Virus record (IMG/VR): IMGVR_UViG_3300046557_000855
Location: 1 to 21,697 of that record
Strand: one strand, 5' to 3'
DNA length: 21,697 bases
Source: a virus
Under the pieces are notes generated by a model, which worked only from the letters and a program-made list of their open reading frames with translations, was not told where the DNA came from and did not search any database. This document shows positions 224 to 12,483 of the stretch, piece after piece; the stretch's first letter is position 1, and every line of letters begins with the position of its first letter. The translations under genes were made by a program, and so were the position numbers.

Positions 224-679
224 TCATTTAGTCGTTGGCCACATGGCGCGGTCGAGCATCATTAGTCCTGTCTCGAGCTGGACGCCGGCTGCGCTGGCCC
301 ATGTGCGTGCTTCCTGTGCCGATTTGTGCCGGCTATAGCTGCCTACCTCATCGCGCATGAGGTCGAGCAGCTCGATATCCGCGCCAAGTGCGATGACCTC
401 AACCAGCTTGCGGATCTCAATGCGAAGGGCGTCGATACGGGCGAGGTTAGCGAGTCGGGAAACTGACTCGCTTTCCTTGGTCTGGATTGCCTTCCGCCGC
501 GCGAGCGGCGTTTCGTTTGTCTGGGTCGCTTGGGCGGGCGTGAGCCCGCTGCTGTTGAGGTCGTCACTCGATTCATTCGCCGGGATGGCGCGAGCGAGGG
601 AGAGCCGTGGGCGCTTATCAGCCGCTTCCCGCTTACGCGGCAGCGGACGCGGGGTAGAAATGGCCGTGCGAACCGTCAT
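224..679 (-). CDS. hypothetical protein, Ala/Arg-rich, helical C-terminal half
   Basis: A 151-residue protein that I do not recognise. Residues 1-65 are basic, proline/serine-rich and probably disordered. From about residue 75 onward the sequence looks mostly alpha-helical (LARIDALRIEIRKLVEVIALGADIELLD), possibly a short coiled coil. No catalytic motif, signal peptide or membrane segment is visible. Its ATG overlaps the TGA of the upstream ParB-like gene in an ATGA junction, which suggests translational coupling and perhaps a shared job. Codon use resembles its neighbours, and the strand and operon context support a real gene. A DNA-binding or partition accessory role is possible but speculative. 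Confidence 0.6.
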   Translation of the reverse strand: MTVRTAISTPRPLPRKREAADKRPRLSLARAIPANESSDDLNSSGLTPAQATQTNETPLARRKAIQTKESESVSRLANLARIDALRIEIRKLVEVIALGADIELLDLMRDEVGSYSRHKSAQEARTWASAAGVQLETGLMMLDRAMWPTTK

Positions 680-1944
680 TTATCCGCCTCCACTGCCATT
701 TTCTCGGTCCAGTCGGGATCGGGCGCCGTCCAAAGCAGTTCCAGCCACGCATGCACGCCTGGCATTTCTTTGGCGTTGCGGGTGTTCCACTGATCGAGCT
801 GCTTTCGAAGCGACTGGACAGCCGCGCGGATGGCCTGCCCTCGAGTCTGATAAGTCGTGTCAGCACCGCGTAGTTTGCAGGGGCTCGATCCAGCAGCCGT
901 GCCCATTGCATAGGACGTCGAGTAAATCCATTTGCCCAGGTCAACATGGGCAAGGTCGATCTCGACGGGGTGCTTGTTGGTACGCTTGAACAAGGGGGCT
1001 TTGAGCGTCTCGCAGTCCGTATAGACGCCGTGTTCATTCGGCCTGTGAATGCGATATTTCGCACGCGTTGCTGGAACGGCATCGAGCAGGTCAGCATGAG
1101 GCGTAAGTGCCGCGTGGACGCCTGCGATCGTGCCAGGTGATAGTTTGCCGAAAATCGGATCGTGCAAGACGGACTGCAACGCCTGCAAAAGTTGCTTTGC
1201 ATGCGCGTCGGTGACCCTGTGGGCCGCGAATTTCGCCAGTGCCTTCTTGGTGACCTTCGCCTTTCCGCCTGCCTTAACCTGCGCTGCGGCGTTTTGGAGT
1301 CGCTCAAGTGCCTTCTCTCCACCGTGTGCTCGGATCTCGTCGATAGCGAGTGTCGACGAGACAACCTTGTCACGGACCAGCTTGTGAAGTGCCGCTGGCG
1401 CTTTCGCGAGCAACAGCACGTCGCGGATCGTCTGGTCCGTAATGTTCAGTCGTTTGCAAATGGTCGCGTTCGGTTCACCGAGCTCCTGGAGCTCGACAAC
1501 CTTCTCGGCGAGTTGCAGCGGCGTGAGCTTCTCGCCATCGTTTGTCGTGATGCCGGCGTAAATCAGGTTTGCGCGATTGACGGACTTGGCTTCGTCGATA
1601 ACGATCGGAAGGCGATCGATCTGCGCGCCTTCTGATATAGCGAGCAGTGCGCCATGGAAGCGGTGCTGCCCGGCATAGACGTAGATTCTGTCTTCGCCAC
1701 CAACTTTACGCACGAAGCACCCGAGCGGTTGCTTGCGGTCGTAACCGTTCACCTTGATGAGGTTCGCCATATGTCGAACGCGATCGGGGTCGAGCGGCCG
1801 GACGTTATCGCGCGGATCATAGTGGATCTGATCCGGAGGTACGGTCCAAAGATCCGACGATCCGCCGCCGGCGGCTTTGACGGCTGCCTTCGTGTTGCCG
1901 GTGACGATCATCGCGTCGAGAACGAGTGGGCTGGTCTTAACCAT
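676..1944 (-). CDS. ParB/KorB-like nucleoid-binding or nuclease-fold protein
   Basis: A 422-residue protein. I place the start at MVKTSPLV (position 1944); the longer reading frame adds 30 residues that overlap the upstream gene. Residues 31-120 match a ParB N-terminal domain: the VPPDQIHYDPRDNVRPLD entry, a helix DRVRHMANLIKVNGYD, and the ParB box-like AGQHRFHGAL at about 91-100, which corresponds to the GERRxRA motif that binds CTP in ParB proteins. Residues 145-180 (LAEKVVELQELGEP.. and RLNITDQTIRDVL) form the central helix-turn-helix. The C-terminal 170 residues are not a known dimerisation domain to me. The ATG sits in ATGGTTAA, overlapping the upstream stop, so it is probably translationally coupled. 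No ParA gene is in the window. Phage ParB-like proteins can be regulators, partition proteins or nucleases; the sequence does not decide which. Confidence 0.8.
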   Translation of the reverse strand: MVKTSPLVLDAMIVTGNTKAAVKAAGGGSSDLWTVPPDQIHYDPRDNVRPLDPDRVRHMANLIKVNGYDRKQPLGCFVRKVGGEDRIYVYAGQHRFHGALLAISEGAQIDRLPIVIDEAKSVNRANLIYAGITTNDGEKLTPLQLAEKVVELQELGEPNATICKRLNITDQTIRDVLLLAKAPAALHKLVRDKVVSSTLAIDEIRAHGGEKALERLQNAAAQVKAGGKAKVTKKALAKFAAHRVTDAHAKQLLQALQSVLHDPIFGKLSPGTIAGVHAALTPHADLLDAVPATRAKYRIHRPNEHGVYTDCETLKAPLFKRTNKHPVEIDLAHVDLGKWIYSTSYAMGTAAGSSPCKLRGADTTYQTRGQAIRAAVQSLRKQLDQWNTRNAKEMPGVHAWLELLWTAPDPDWTEKMAVEADK

Positions 1945-2251
1945 GGTTGGCCCCTCCGGTCGACGGGATCTCGGCAACATCGGCGAACGTAGCGTCCGGT
2001 GCATAGTGGAACAACGTGCCATCGAACGGCGCAATCGTTACGCCTGCGAGCCAGTACACGAGGCGCTCGTCGGAGCGTCGAATCGCCTGCCGCACGACCG
2101 TAGCGCGTACCAAGGTATGCAGGCCGAGGCGGAGTGCTGGTCGATCGGCGTGGGGCATTGTGGCCTCAACATCGTCGATTGTGAGCGGATCGCGCTGGCC
2201 GGCGAAAAGCGCGATCAGCGCTTTGCAGATGGGGGAGAGATCATTGGGCAT
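1937..2251 (-). CDS. hypothetical protein, possible winged-helix
   Basis: A 104-residue protein without a family name I can give. Residues 1-70 have the rhythm of a winged-helix domain: ALIALFAGQRDPLTIDDVEATM as helices 1-2, RPALRLGLHTLVRATVVRQAI as a recognition-type helix leading into a strand, and RLVYWLAGV as a wing strand. No zinc or catalytic residues are apparent. A good GGAGG lies 5 bases before the ATG. The 3' end overlaps the ParB-like start by 8 bases and the 5' end overlaps the upstream membrane protein gene, so it sits in the middle of the operon. A DNA-binding role is an inference from the predicted shape only. Confidence 0.65.
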   Translation of the reverse strand: MPNDLSPICKALIALFAGQRDPLTIDDVEATMPHADRPALRLGLHTLVRATVVRQAIRRSDERLVYWLAGVTIAPFDGTLFHYAPDATFADVAEIPSTGGANHG

Positions 2252-5817: not shown

Positions 5818-8508
5818 ATGTCTTCAATACAGCAGATCGTTCAGCAGCTCGAGGCTGATGGTCATCCGAAACTGCCTGATGGCCATCCCATTGCTGATGG
5901 CAAACCGCATCGGTATGGGGCTGGCAAGAAATACTGGTACTCCCTCCACCAGATCGAGCGCGCGGGCAAGGTCCTCGGTTACACCGGCGCATTCGGTCGT
6001 TGGTCCGGCAATGACAACGGCGCTCAGGCTTTCCAGTGGCGCGGCGAGGAATTGACGCCGGAAGATGTAAGTGCAGCCCGACAGCGCCAGCAGGTAGCCG
6101 ATCGAGCCGAAGCTGAGAAGAAAGCGCATGCCGCGAAACTTGCCGCGAATCGCGCGCGCGATCAGTGGCAAAGAGCAAGTGACGACGGCACGTCCGGCTA
6201 TCTCGACAGAAAGCAGATCACGCCAGAGGGCGTGCGATTCGATTCCGAAGGCACGGTGTTTGTGCCGATGTTCCGGTACACCGACAGCATTCGTCTCGTT
6301 GGCTTGCAAAAGATCACGCCCGATGGCGCGAAGCGTTTCAACAAGGGTATGGAGAAGAAAGGCGCCGCGTACCTGCTCGGCGAGATCCGTGACGACGACA
6401 AGGTCGCCATGGTCGCGGAAGGGTATGCGACCGGCCGCTCGATCCGGATGGCGACCGACGAGGCTATCCCGGTGTCGATCTGCTTCGATGCCGGCGGCAT
6501 TCTGTCGGCAACGCGTTACCTGCGTGATGCATACCCCGATCTGCATCTGCTGATCTGCGCCGACGACGACTGGAAGATCGAACAGCGGCTGCGGGACTGC
6601 CTCGCCGAAGAGTTTGGCTATACCGGCGAGCTGGTAATCGGCGGCGATGCAGTACGCGTTGAAGCTAAAAATACCTGGTACATGATGCGCGCTGTGTTCA
6701 GACGCGACGATCAGGGTGTGGGCTATATCGAACTGTCTTATCGCAACGACGTCTCACCGGAGCGCCTCAAGCGGTTCGAGAACGCAGGCTTCAAGTATGC
6801 GTATGAGGCGGTCGCGGATGTTGGTAATGCAAGCGTCGTATTCCCGCGCTTCGCTAACCGCGGTGACCGTAAGCTGACAGACTTCAACGATCTGCATTGC
6901 GAGGAAGGTCTCGAGCTCGTGCGGCAGCAGATCCAGTCCGCGCTGCTGGCCGCTTTGGCACCGACCGCACAGGACATCCCGCTGGATGCGCTGATGCAGG
7001 ATCAGGATCTCGCAGGCGACCCTCTATACGATCGCGCTGTTGCGGTTGTACGGACTGCGACGCGTGCGTCCGTGTCGCTTGTGCAGCGGGCATTGAGCAT
7101 CGGCTTCAATCGCGCAGCCCGGCTGATCGAACGTATGGCCGCTGACGGCATCGTTTCGGACGAAAGCCCGAACGGTACGCGGTCGGTGATCGGCGCCGCC
7201 AATGCAGAGCGCGCGACGTCCGCTGGCGCTGCGACAGAGGAAAGCGACAGTCACGAGGTCGAGAACGGTGCGCACACCTGGGCGCGCGATCTGGCGCGAA
7301 GCGAGAAAGGCAACCTGCTGCCCACGCTCGGCAACGTGCATCAGATCCTTTCGAATCACAAGTCATGGCAGGGCGTTATCGCGCAGGATGACTTCGCCGG
7401 TCGCGTGGTGAAGCGGAAAAGGCCGCCGTTTCCGCAGGGCGAGGTCGGCGAATGGTCGGACATGGACGACATTCGCTGTGTGCTTTGGTTGTCGCAGAAA
7501 TACGGAATATCGGTGCGGCAGGACATCGTGATGAGCGCCGTGTTGCTTGTTGCCGATGCGACGCATTTTCACGACGTGCGCGAATACCTCGAAGGTGTCG
7601 TGTGGGACGGCGTCGCGCGCGTGCGTACCTGGGCAACGCGCTATATGAAGGTGGCCGATAGCGAGTATGTGCAACTGGCCGGCACGAAGTGGCTCATCGC
7701 GGCAGTCGCGCGCGTGATGCGGCCCGGCTGCAAAGCGGACAACGTGCTGATTCTGGAAGGCAAGCAGGGCTGGTACAAGTCGACGGCGCTGGAAGTGATT
7801 GCGGGCAAGCCGTGGTACACGAACTCACCGATCCGCATCGGCGACAAGGATACCTACGCCGTCATGGCGGGCAAGTGGATCATCGAACTGGCCGAGCTGG
7901 ATTCACTTAACAAAAGCGATTCGTCAGCCGCCAAAAGCTTCTTTGCGACCGAGACAGACCGCTTCCGTAACTTCTACGGCAAGCGAGCGACGGACGTGCA
8001 CCGGCAGGGTGTGTTCGCCGGCTCGGTCAACTTCGACACGTACCTCAAAGACGAATCCGGAAACCGGCGTTACTGGCCGCTGCGTGTAGGCGGGCCGATC
8101 CTTATCGACGACCTGCGTCGCGACCGCGACCAGTTGTGGGCAGAGGCCGTGCACCTGTACCGGCAAGGCGTCATCTGGCACGTGACCGAAGCTGAAAAAC
8201 CCCTGTTTGAAAGCGAGCAGACCGAACGCTATGAAGGCGATGTCTATGAGGACCGGATCGCGCGCGATCTGGAGCTCCGGCCGCGCGTCACGATGGAGGA
8301 GATCCTCGCCGACATTCTCAAGCTCGACACATCGAAGTGGACGCTGCCCGAACAGCGTCGCGTCGGCAAAGCACTGAAATCACTCGGATGGGTGCGCAAG
8401 CGGGAGTCGACGGGCCGGCGCGATTGGTACTACGTGAAGGAAGACGAAGCACCGGCACCCGTGATGGAACTTGCAACTGAGGGCGCGGACGATGACGCAC
8501 CGCTCTGA
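5818..8508 (+). CDS. replicative primase-helicase: Toprim, FtsK-gamma-like and VapE domains
   Basis: An 896-residue protein starting at MSSIQQIVQQ behind a strong AGGAGGA. Residues 20-75 hold DGHP/DGKPHR repeats seen at the start of phage Toprim primases. The Toprim-type core has the glutamate in VAMVAEGYATGRS (197-207), LLICADDDW (244-252) and DFNDLH (355-360). Residues 401-458 (DPLYDRAVAVV.., RASVSLVQRALSIGFNRAARL, MAADGIVS, NGTRSV) match the FtsK gamma winged helix. Residues 545-800 are a virulence-associated E helicase: Walker A GKQGWYKST (648-656), Walker B-like KWIIELAELD (686-695), arginine motif NRRYWPL (749-755). A winged-helix-like C-terminus (VTMEEILADIL..RVGKALKSLGW) follows. The protein should prime and unwind phage DNA. 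An unexplained segment of about 70 residues interrupts the Toprim region (271-350). Confidence 0.9.
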   Translation: MSSIQQIVQQLEADGHPKLPDGHPIADGKPHRYGAGKKYWYSLHQIERAGKVLGYTGAFGRWSGNDNGAQAFQWRGEELTPEDVSAARQRQQVADRAEAEKKAHAAKLAANRARDQWQRASDDGTSGYLDRKQITPEGVRFDSEGTVFVPMFRYTDSIRLVGLQKITPDGAKRFNKGMEKKGAAYLLGEIRDDDKVAMVAEGYATGRSIRMATDEAIPVSICFDAGGILSATRYLRDAYPDLHLLICADDDWKIEQRLRDCLAEEFGYTGELVIGGDAVRVEAKNTWYMMRAVFRRDDQGVGYIELSYRNDVSPERLKRFENAGFKYAYEAVADVGNASVVFPRFANRGDRKLTDFNDLHCEEGLELVRQQIQSALLAALAPTAQDIPLDALMQDQDLAGDPLYDRAVAVVRTATRASVSLVQRALSIGFNRAARLIERMAADGIVSDESPNGTRSVIGAANAERATSAGAATEESDSHEVENGAHTWARDLARSEKGNLLPTLGNVHQILSNHKSWQGVIAQDDFAGRVVKRKRPPFPQGEVGEWSDMDDIRCVLWLSQKYGISVRQDIVMSAVLLVADATHFHDVREYLEGVVWDGVARVRTWATRYMKVADSEYVQLAGTKWLIAAVARVMRPGCKADNVLILEGKQGWYKSTALEVIAGKPWYTNSPIRIGDKDTYAVMAGKWIIELAELDSLNKSDSSAAKSFFATETDRFRNFYGKRATDVHRQGVFAGSVNFDTYLKDESGNRRYWPLRVGGPILIDDLRRDRDQLWAEAVHLYRQGVIWHVTEAEKPLFESEQTERYEGDVYEDRIARDLELRPRVTMEEILADILKLDTSKWTLPEQRRVGKALKSLGWVRKRESTGRRDWYYVKEDEAPAPVMELATEGADDDAPL

Positions 8509-8600
8509 TTTCCCGTCTTTCTGGCGCGCTGCGCTTCGTTTCCCGGCGCGCTCTTGCGCCAGCTTTGGCGCGCCGATTCCGGGGTTCAACGCCGTCCTGT

Positions 8601-8731
8601 GTCCCAACGTCCCAAGCGATCGCCTTGCGTGTGTGCGCATGCCCGCGACGTGGGCGACGTGAGGGTGTGCGCATGTCGCGGGTGCGCACACACCCACAAG
8701 CTTTTCCTTTGGGACGTTAGGACATTGGGAC
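8601..8731. repeat. palindromic array of 8-bp repeats, candidate replication origin
   Basis: Outer arms: GTCCCAAC GTCCCAAG (8601-8616) on the left and TTTGGGAC GTTAGGAC ATTGGGAC (8708-8731) on the right, that is 8-bp units in inverted orientation. Between them is a second inverted repeat: 8624-8649 (CTTGCGTGTGTGCGCATG...) pairs with 8675-8700 (GTCGCGGGTGCGCACACACC...) with few mismatches. GTGTGCGCATG also occurs as a direct repeat (8631-8641, 8665-8675). The array fills most of the 238-bp gap after the primase gene, ending 15 bases before the next start. Repeats beside the primase suggest an origin; a transcription-terminating hairpin is the alternative, but no T-run follows. Confidence 0.65.
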
Positions 8732-8746
8732 AATAAGGGGTTAAAG

Positions 8747-9526
8747 ATGATCGACCTGAAAGAGCAAGCCGGGGTGGCGATGAACGTTCGCGGTCAGTTC
8801 TCTGATCCGATCGCCGATCCAAAAGTAACTTTGGGTGCGTTGGCCTTCGCTAACGACTTGGGTCGCGCACTCGTGCGGATGAAGTGTGGTCAGGATGTCA
8901 GGCCGGATAACGTGCGGCGCACGACGTTGCTGCTCGCGCAGTTGATCCGTCGAAGTGACCGTTTCGATCGCAGTAAATTTACGGGATTAGATTGCGCCCA
9001 GGCAAGAGACCATCGATCCGGTCGGGAAGTCGAACGAACCGAGGTCGACATCGTTGAGCGATTTGCACGTCGTCTACTAGTGGAGTGGATAGACGACCAG
9101 TGTCCGCGTTGTGAAGGTCGCGGCGTTTCAGGTCGCGTACTGGCGGCACGACCTGTCGCGGTTACCTGTCCGCAGTGTAGTGGGAAGCGGTCGATATGCC
9201 TTTCGGAGGAAAGCGTGCCGTTCTTTGCTCGCGCAGATGGGCGCGGACCGATCATGTTTCGCCACTACGAGCGGTGCGGGCACTGTCTGGGACGTGGCGC
9301 GATTTTGCAGCACGCACCAAAGATCCGCGAGGGCAGACAGATCTGTCCGGACTGCGATGGAAACGGACGATTGCCGGTTGACGAAGCTGCCCGATCGCAG
9401 GCTATTGGTGTGCCGTTACCGCGATACCGTCGCCATTGGGCGAAGCACTTTCGTGACATGCTCGCGTTGCTGGATCACGTCGATGGCGCAGTCGTGGACA
9501 CGATGCGTCGGCAGATGCGAGGATGA
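8747..9526 (+). CDS. four-CXXC zinc-finger protein, candidate late antiterminator (Q-like)
   Basis: A 259-residue protein with DnaJ-like cysteine motifs: CPRCEGRG (119-126), CPQCSGKR (141-148), CGHCLGRG (177-184) and CPDCDGNG (200-207). These four CXXC pairs could hold two zinc ions. The N-terminal 110 residues are helical and basic; the C-terminus is a helical charged region (RYRRHWAKHFRDMLALLDHVDG). AAGGGG stands about 7 bases before the ATG. It is the last early gene, directly before a strong terminator and the packaging genes, the position of lambda Q. Lambda Q also has a zinc finger, but I see no decisive sequence match, so antitermination is an inference. A DnaJ-type chaperone is unlikely because the J domain is missing. 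Confidence 0.65.
   Translation: MIDLKEQAGVAMNVRGQFSDPIADPKVTLGALAFANDLGRALVRMKCGQDVRPDNVRRTTLLLAQLIRRSDRFDRSKFTGLDCAQARDHRSGREVERTEVDIVERFARRLLVEWIDDQCPRCEGRGVSGRVLAARPVAVTCPQCSGKRSICLSEESVPFFARADGRGPIMFRHYERCGHCLGRGAILQHAPKIREGRQICPDCDGNGRLPVDEAARSQAIGVPLPRYRRHWAKHFRDMLALLDHVDGAVVDTMRRQMRG
8822..8832. repeat. AAAGTNACTTT dyad copy 3
   Basis: AAAGTAACTTT, a perfect 11-bp inverted repeat 75 bases into the zinc-finger gene, where it encodes KVTL. Confidence 0.65.
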
Positions 9527-10798: not shown

Positions 10799-12483
10799 AA
10801 AATGCCGATCTTGACTGGGACGCGTACGGCCGTGACGTGCTCGCAGGAAAGATCGTGGTGTGCAAGTGGGTGCGCAAGGCCGTCGAGCGTCACTATCGCG
10901 ACCTCGAAACGGGCGCTGCGCGCGGCCTGATCTTTAGCGATGCGCACGCCCGGCATGTATTGTCGTTCTTTGACTTCCTGAAACACAGTAAAGACAAGTG
11001 GGCCGGCTCGCGTTTCGAGCTGTCGCTGTGGCAGGCGTTCTGGCTCGCGGTGCTGTTCGGCTGGTTGCGAGCCGACGGCACGCGGCGCTTTCGCAAGGCG
11101 TACTGGGAGATCGCGCGCAAGAACGGAAAATCGACGCTGCTATCCGGTGTGGGGCTGTATCTGCTGATCGGCGACGGCATAGCTGGCGCAGAGGTCTATA
11201 CGGCGGCGACCAAGCTGGATCAGGCCAAGATCGTGCATGAAGAGGCAAAGCGCATGGTCATGCAGTCGGCCGAACTGCGCAAGCACCTGCAGATCGTCAA
11301 GAACGACATCCTTTTGCCGGGCACCGCGAACACCTACAAGCCGCTAGGCGCTGACGCGTTGACGCAGGACGGGCTGAACCCGCACGGTGCAATTCTCGAC
11401 GAGCTGCACGCGCATCCGTCGCGTGCATTGTGGGACGTGATCGAGTCGGCGACGGGTTCGCGTTCGCAACCGTTGATGCTCGCAATTACGACGGCGGGTT
11501 TCAACACGGAAAACTCGATCTGCATCGAGCAGCGCAACTATGTGCGCCGCCTTCTGGAAGAGGCGATCGAAGACGACGCGTACTTCGGCGTGATCTACAC
11601 GCTTGACGGATACGACGGCGGCGAAGACGACGAAAAGGACGACTGGACCGATCCAAAACACTGGATCAAGGCGAATCCGAATCTAGGTCTCTCGGTGTTT
11701 CCAGACAATCTAGCAGAGTCGGTGCGTGTTGCTCAAAACGAACCGTCGGCTCAGGCAAATGTGCTGACAAAGCGCTTCAATATCTGGGTCAAGGCATCGC
11801 ATCTCTGGATGGCGATGGACAAGTGGAAGGCGTGCGGTGCGAGTTACACGCTCGAAGATCTGCAGGAGGTCGTCGCGGTGTACGGCGGTCTGGATCTGGC
11901 GAGTACTTCGGACCTCTGTTCGCTCGGTCTTCAGTTCATTCTTGAGGACGGCACACGCGCCTTGTGGGGCAAACACTACCTGCCAGAAGACGTCGCGCTC
12001 GATGCCGAGAATCGCAATCACCGTCTGTATCTCGTCTGGAAAGAGCAGGGCTGGTTGACCCTGACACCAGGAAACGTGACCGATTATGAGTTCATCAAAA
12101 GCGATGCCAGAAAGCTCATGGACCGGTTTCCCATCGCCGAGATAGCGTTCGACCGTTGGAATAGTTCGCAGCTGGTGACGGACCTGATGAACGATGGTGC
12201 AAACATGGTCCAGTTTGGCCAGGGTTACGCCAGCATGAGTCCGGCGATGAAGGAATTCGAGCGCCTCATCAAGGGGCGGCAGATGATCCACCCGAACGAT
12301 CCGGTAATGACGTGGGCGATGAGCAATGTGGTCGCGTCAAAGGATCCGGCCGGCAACATCAAGCCCGACAAGCAGAAAAGCGCAAACAAGATCGACCCGG
12401 CCGTCGCGCAGATCATGGCGGCCGGTCGGGCGGCACTCGCAACAATCGAGCCGGTCATCAAAACCGCATTCGTGGGACTCTAA
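10795..12483 (+). CDS. terL: terminase large subunit
   Basis: A 562-residue DNA-packaging motor protein of the Terminase_1 family. The ATPase has Walker A ARKNGKST (107-114) and Walker B GAILDELHAH (198-207, with the D-E pair); SATGSRSQPLMLAITTAG (218-235) is the coupling region. The nuclease half shows GGLDLASTSDL (364-374, first acidic residue) and AEIAFDRWNSSQLV with a further aspartate. It cuts and pumps phage DNA into the prohead through the portal. The length is normal, with no frameshift. The stop shares its last base with the portal start (TAATG). Confidence 0.95.
   Translation: MKNADLDWDAYGRDVLAGKIVVCKWVRKAVERHYRDLETGAARGLIFSDAHARHVLSFFDFLKHSKDKWAGSRFELSLWQAFWLAVLFGWLRADGTRRFRKAYWEIARKNGKSTLLSGVGLYLLIGDGIAGAEVYTAATKLDQAKIVHEEAKRMVMQSAELRKHLQIVKNDILLPGTANTYKPLGADALTQDGLNPHGAILDELHAHPSRALWDVIESATGSRSQPLMLAITTAGFNTENSICIEQRNYVRRLLEEAIEDDAYFGVIYTLDGYDGGEDDEKDDWTDPKHWIKANPNLGLSVFPDNLAESVRVAQNEPSAQANVLTKRFNIWVKASHLWMAMDKWKACGASYTLEDLQEVVAVYGGLDLASTSDLCSLGLQFILEDGTRALWGKHYLPEDVALDAENRNHRLYLVWKEQGWLTLTPGNVTDYEFIKSDARKLMDRFPIAEIAFDRWNSSQLVTDLMNDGANMVQFGQGYASMSPAMKEFERLIKGRQMIHPNDPVMTWAMSNVVASKDPAGNIKPDKQKSANKIDPAVAQIMAAGRAALATIEPVIKTAFVGL

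Follow-up and report, generated by a model that had tools for sequence, protein, structure and literature searches.

The stretch from 8523 to 8732 of the window, by which we mean the whole 21,697-nucleotide piece of viral DNA analysed here, is very probably an iteron-type replication origin of this temperate phage. We infer origin activity from the anatomy of the array, its conservation, its linkage to a primase-helicase gene, the change of its motif from lineage to lineage, a predicted winged helix in the encoded enzyme, and the homology of that enzyme to self-loading helicases. To our knowledge, replication origins have rarely been identified in temperate phages of Burkholderiales and Pseudomonas.

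The array starts 92 bp past the stop codon of a VapE-type primase-helicase gene (Table 1). A preliminary description had reported two GTCCCAA-type units facing three TTGGGAC/TTAGGAC units at an 8-bp period, with a longer inverted repeat and a direct repeat between them. All units are where they were placed, and both additional repeats are present, the inverted one 14 nt long and nested between the iteron sets, the direct one formed by GCGACGTG. The 21.7-kb window contains five copies of GTCCCAA where 1.7 would be expected, a count reached in 2 of 100 shuffles, and four of the five copies fall within the 131-bp array stretch. It is conservation that decides against a chance arrangement, as an alignment of 25 relatives shows little or no variation in the iteron words. 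The GGCGCGC repeats lie past the primase stop and upstream of the left iterons, two helical turns apart, and are conserved in Burkholderiales-type relatives; over 57 loci, 66 of 76 adjacent pairs keep the 22-bp spacing. The inner GCGACRTG sites (8645–8679), two direct and one inverted, are nearly invariant in Burkholderiales-type relatives and are likely a second protein site. An Rfam scan returned no match, as did a blastn search of a 261-bp region against annotated phages.

Table 1. Positions of the array, its parts and the neighbouring genes in the window.
Feature	Position	Strand	Remarks
ParB-like gene	676–2034	-	phrog_1033; early region
Primase-helicase gene	5818–8508	+	ATG at 5818; longer GTG ORF from 5770
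FtsK-gamma winged-helix domain	7015–7191	+	between primase and helicase parts; PF09397, E 1.6e-20
VapE-like SF3/AAA+ helicase domain	about 7588–8232	+	PF05272, E 3.9e-72
C-terminal winged helix, proposed iteron reader	8242–8439	+	predicted fold; R860 codon at 8395–8397
GGCGCGC repeats, three	8523, 8545, 8567 (8523–8573)	+	exact 22-bp spacing
Left iterons, GTCCCAA, two	8601–8607, 8609–8615	-	8-bp period; almost invariant in the 25-relative alignment
GC-rich palindromic spacer	8616–8708	.	65% GC; alternating purine-pyrimidine tract 8626–8642
Nested 14-nt inverted repeat	8626–8639/8683–8696		between the iteron sets
Inner conserved sites, GCGACGTG	8645–8652, 8654–8661		direct repeat; near-invariant in 25 aligned relatives
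Inverted inner site, GCGCATGTCGC	8669–8679		mirrors the GCGACGTG direct repeat; near-invariant in 25 aligned relatives
Pyrimidine tract, CTTTTCCTTT	8701–8710	+	adjoins right iterons; T/C-rich tract here in relatives too
Right iterons, TTGGGAC/TTAGGAC/TTGGGAC	8709–8715, 8717–8723, 8725–8731	+	8-bp period
Q-like antitermination protein gene	8747–9526	+	phrog_127, E 1.7e-25; neighbour, outside the element
Terminase small subunit gene	10295		

The product of the primase-helicase gene matches phrog_2249, annotated 'DNA primase' (E 2.5e-203). Its closest solved structure is PriRep1, determined with dsDNA (7pds; profile E 3.5e-92), with which the C-terminal half shares a TM-score of 0.70–0.73 by target length. 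The FtsK-gamma domain inserted into the enzyme is 56% identical to the gamma domain of Pseudomonas aeruginosa FtsK (2ve8), and is lacking in related primases with the same array. In a phage primase, such a domain possibly binds host KOPS.

Relatives of the enzyme were encoded at 36 viral and 10 genome loci, with a wider set added later, and the closest come from Paraburkholderia. The array lies just 3' of the primase gene in nearly all full relatives. When loci were retrieved through the array itself, a primase was again found upstream, except in L052, which has no primase in the locus, L064, which breaks off at the array, and L059, which has a different primase-type helicase gene upstream. 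The 1-kb regions 3' of the gene in distinct relatives contain 401 occurrences of T(A/G)GGACA/TGTCC(C/T)A, compared with 9.6 expected from the remainder of the same loci. Among 41 non-redundant relatives, the inverted-iteron score exceeded that of every shuffle in 29 downstream of the gene, in 3 upstream and in 1 inside it. Across relatives the array tracks the primase-helicase gene and not the downstream gene, which differs in L054 and L060 with the array retained. The right iterons number from 2 to 6 units, units being gained or lost in 8-bp steps (L013, L056 and L027), and one branch (L098, L116 and L117) carries the same word at a 9-bp spacing. A strict search for the exact three-unit array gave no match in 369 whole genomes drawn across the class, the pattern being so strict that it also misses G001, a relative with TTAGGAC in its array. 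The distant primase relative PPpW-3 has only ~60 bp between the primase and the next gene and no array there, which we count against the origin reading.

Among divergent relatives the iteron word itself changes with lineage. It is TTGGCA in L028, GGTATGGAA in L167 and L170, GGTGGTCAC in L172, TGGACC in L169, GTGGACAC in L174 and in Variovorax phage VarioGold, and GGTGACCAG in Marinobacter phage PS3. The facing layout is kept in these relatives, so the left and right sides changed together. Motif similarity follows primase similarity with a Spearman coefficient of 0.66–0.69 (0 of 300 permutations for the C-terminus), where the consensus motifs were picked out visually in the 3' regions, a weakness of this test. 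The preliminary description had suggested that the repeats act as iterons at an origin, and had proposed comparing their spacing in relatives. Relatives proved to conserve the array together with its 8-bp spacing and its place 3' of the primase, and the co-variation of the word with the primase-helicase lends that suggestion further support, the activity itself being our interpretation. The copy-number steps of 8 bp and the two-sided change of word argue for protein-binding iterons and against a transcript hairpin.

Which part of the enzyme might read the iterons? The FtsK-gamma domain, a first guess from Pfam, was rejected, as 68 of 97 distinct primases that keep the array lack it; by the same count, the array does not behave as a KOPS-like site read by FtsK gamma. 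We also rejected the idea that the array acts like KOPS on chromosomes, given the lack of a three-unit match in the 369 genomes. The N-terminus is an unlikely reader, since L028 keeps all 52 conserved N-terminal residues and yet has a different word; this enzyme departs at 20 of 98 conserved positions in the helicase and at 3 of 16 in the C-terminal domain. A Fisher test of the L028 C-terminus against the rest was not significant (p 0.47), and partial correlations did not single out the C-terminal domain. The C-terminus has a predicted winged-helix fold, and a structure search with this part alone returned several winged-helix proteins among its matches, none of them significant.

In a first alignment of the Pseudomonas-type branch, one of 750 columns separated TAGGAC from TGGGAC arrays. 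In an alignment of 131 sequences and 742 columns, the column equivalent to R860 is the only perfect one, with Lys in 79 of 79 enzymes with TAGGAC arrays and Arg in 52 of 52 with TGGGAC arrays; another column reaches 99.2% separation. A later retrieval upheld the rule in 75 of 75 untied sequences; two R-type rows left out of the groups, L129 and L145, both break it. The switch is clustered on the tree, which needs only two changes, one of them firmly forced. From these sequence comparisons, there is a good, not conclusive, case that the winged helix would be the reader, recognizing G at iteron base 2 through Arg and A through Lys. If this code is true, Lys at the R860 position would shift the preference from G to A, that is, from TTGGGACA to TTAGGACA. 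For the last iteron base, column 718 seemed predictive in the initial set, and column 689 was dropped as a predictor after failing on later sequences.

The spacer between the iteron sets has no more than 10 A+T in its best 20-bp stretch in the window, and Pseudomonas-type relatives have an added A+T-rich stretch adjoining the right iterons, with 14–17 of 20. Its longest alternating purine-pyrimidine run is 17, compared with a shuffle mean of 10.2; over 23 relatives the mean is 21.2 versus 10.5 in dinucleotide shuffles. By its sequence, the pyrimidine tract CTTTTCCTTT is the only candidate weak-duplex stretch of the array. The 133-nt strand folds as a single nested hairpin of -43.8 kcal/mol (z -5.4), and no shuffle was equally stable. 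Such a strong fold, lying between co-directional genes and followed by a Q-like gene, would suit a palindrome that acts in RNA, either as a transcription terminator or as the recognition site of the antiterminator encoded downstream. We consider this very unlikely, because no terminator-like site was found within the array, compensatory change affects just 2 of 30 pairs between the arms, the two sides gain and lose copies independently, 8 bp at a time, and the array persists where no Q-like gene follows. An alignment of 25 Burkholderiales-type loci shows three near-invariant blocks, namely the two iteron sets and, between them, GCGACRTGCGCGACGTG ... GCGCATGTCGC; with pairing almost without compensatory support, these blocks look like protein sites on duplex DNA.

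Two further explanations place the array at the service of other proteins or other steps. Operators or parS-like sites can be iteron-like arrays, and the phage has a ParB-like gene, so the repeats could be an operator or partition site for that or another phage protein and not an origin. This is very unlikely when the word varies from one primase-helicase lineage to another and phages of differing gene order keep the array 3' of the primase-helicase gene. The hairpin could also be a single-strand initiation or priming site for the N-terminal primase, the strands being opened elsewhere; the strong nested palindrome, the conserved inner GCGACRTG sites and the preference of the SCCmec partner primase for iteron-region-like sequences (PMC7581432) would fit. 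We hold this, too, to be very unlikely, as the word is not tied to the N-terminal half, the conserved part of which is unaltered in L028.

The iteron-origin reading has close parallels in mobile elements. The C-terminal domain of the SaPI Rep helicase reads iterons directly 3' of its own gene, and that of the SCCmec helicase Cch2 binds short repeats at a putative origin just downstream of its operon (PMC7581432). In PICIs of both Gram types, the initiator gene is followed on its 3' side by two iteron sets with an AT-rich region between them, and the pri-rep-ori segment supports plasmid replication (PMC6092414). With PICIs and SaPIs the phage array shares its place immediately after the initiator gene, a set of short iterons on either side of a spacer (2 + 3 facing units at the 8-bp period), and an initiator homologous to self-loading SF3 Rep helicases, here PriRep1. 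It differs from them in having a 65% GC, palindromic spacer instead of an AT-rich region, in belonging to a temperate phage of full size that carries terminase, portal and capsid genes, and in the FtsK-gamma domain inserted in its enzyme. Because the window lacks the AT-rich spacer, we class the element as a variant of the PICI/SaPI type and not as a member. SCCmec differs from the phage in its three 5-nt iterons, separate polymerase-primase and D5-like helicase family. In phage P4, the alpha protein is a primase-helicase that reads the origin through its C-terminal domain, and the phage has short iterons and a separate crr. The combination of primase-helicase and short iterons is common to both phages, whereas the iteron words differ, and in place of a second iteron region like crr the complete relative U5 has a single cluster (28017–28278), the window being a fragment. 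In the open literature, we found no report on these repeats or on FtsK-gamma domains in phage primases.

In the mechanism we propose, the C-terminal winged helix of the primase-helicase encoded upstream would bind the 8-bp iterons, 5'-TTGGGACA and the inverse of this sequence, and the enzyme would assemble on both facing sets, probably in the form of two hexamers. Opening would follow at the palindromic spacer and at the pyrimidine tract beside it, and the SF3 helicase would load itself and unwind outward while the N-terminal part primes. Two further observations count against the origin reading: cumulative GC skew in two complete relatives is monotone, with no switch at the array, and proved uninformative as an origin mark, and the 65% GC spacer is unlike that of PICIs. 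More tentatively, phage primase-helicases of this kind may throughout the family be self-loading enzymes with cognate 3' iteron origins, an Arg/Lys–G/A code and a GC-rich, palindromic, alternating spacer as the opening site, a generalization we think possible and somewhat doubtful.

Facing 8–9-bp repeats 3' of VapE-type primases offer a rule for finding origins, and a layout described as unique to satellites would extend to full phages. The system also lends itself to a simple test of origin choice by such helicases, and a common origin word might let phages and satellites compete for one another's helicase or borrow it. In the 73-kb viral contig L059, similar TGGGACAG arrays at an 8-bp period (11398–11641) follow a different, P4/D5-like-looking helicase gene, which suggests that the word is common beyond this primase family. 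In another viral contig, an MCM-like helicase gene has TGGGACAGTGGGACAGTGGGACA within its coding sequence (L080, 3745–3767), either by chance or as an intragenic origin.
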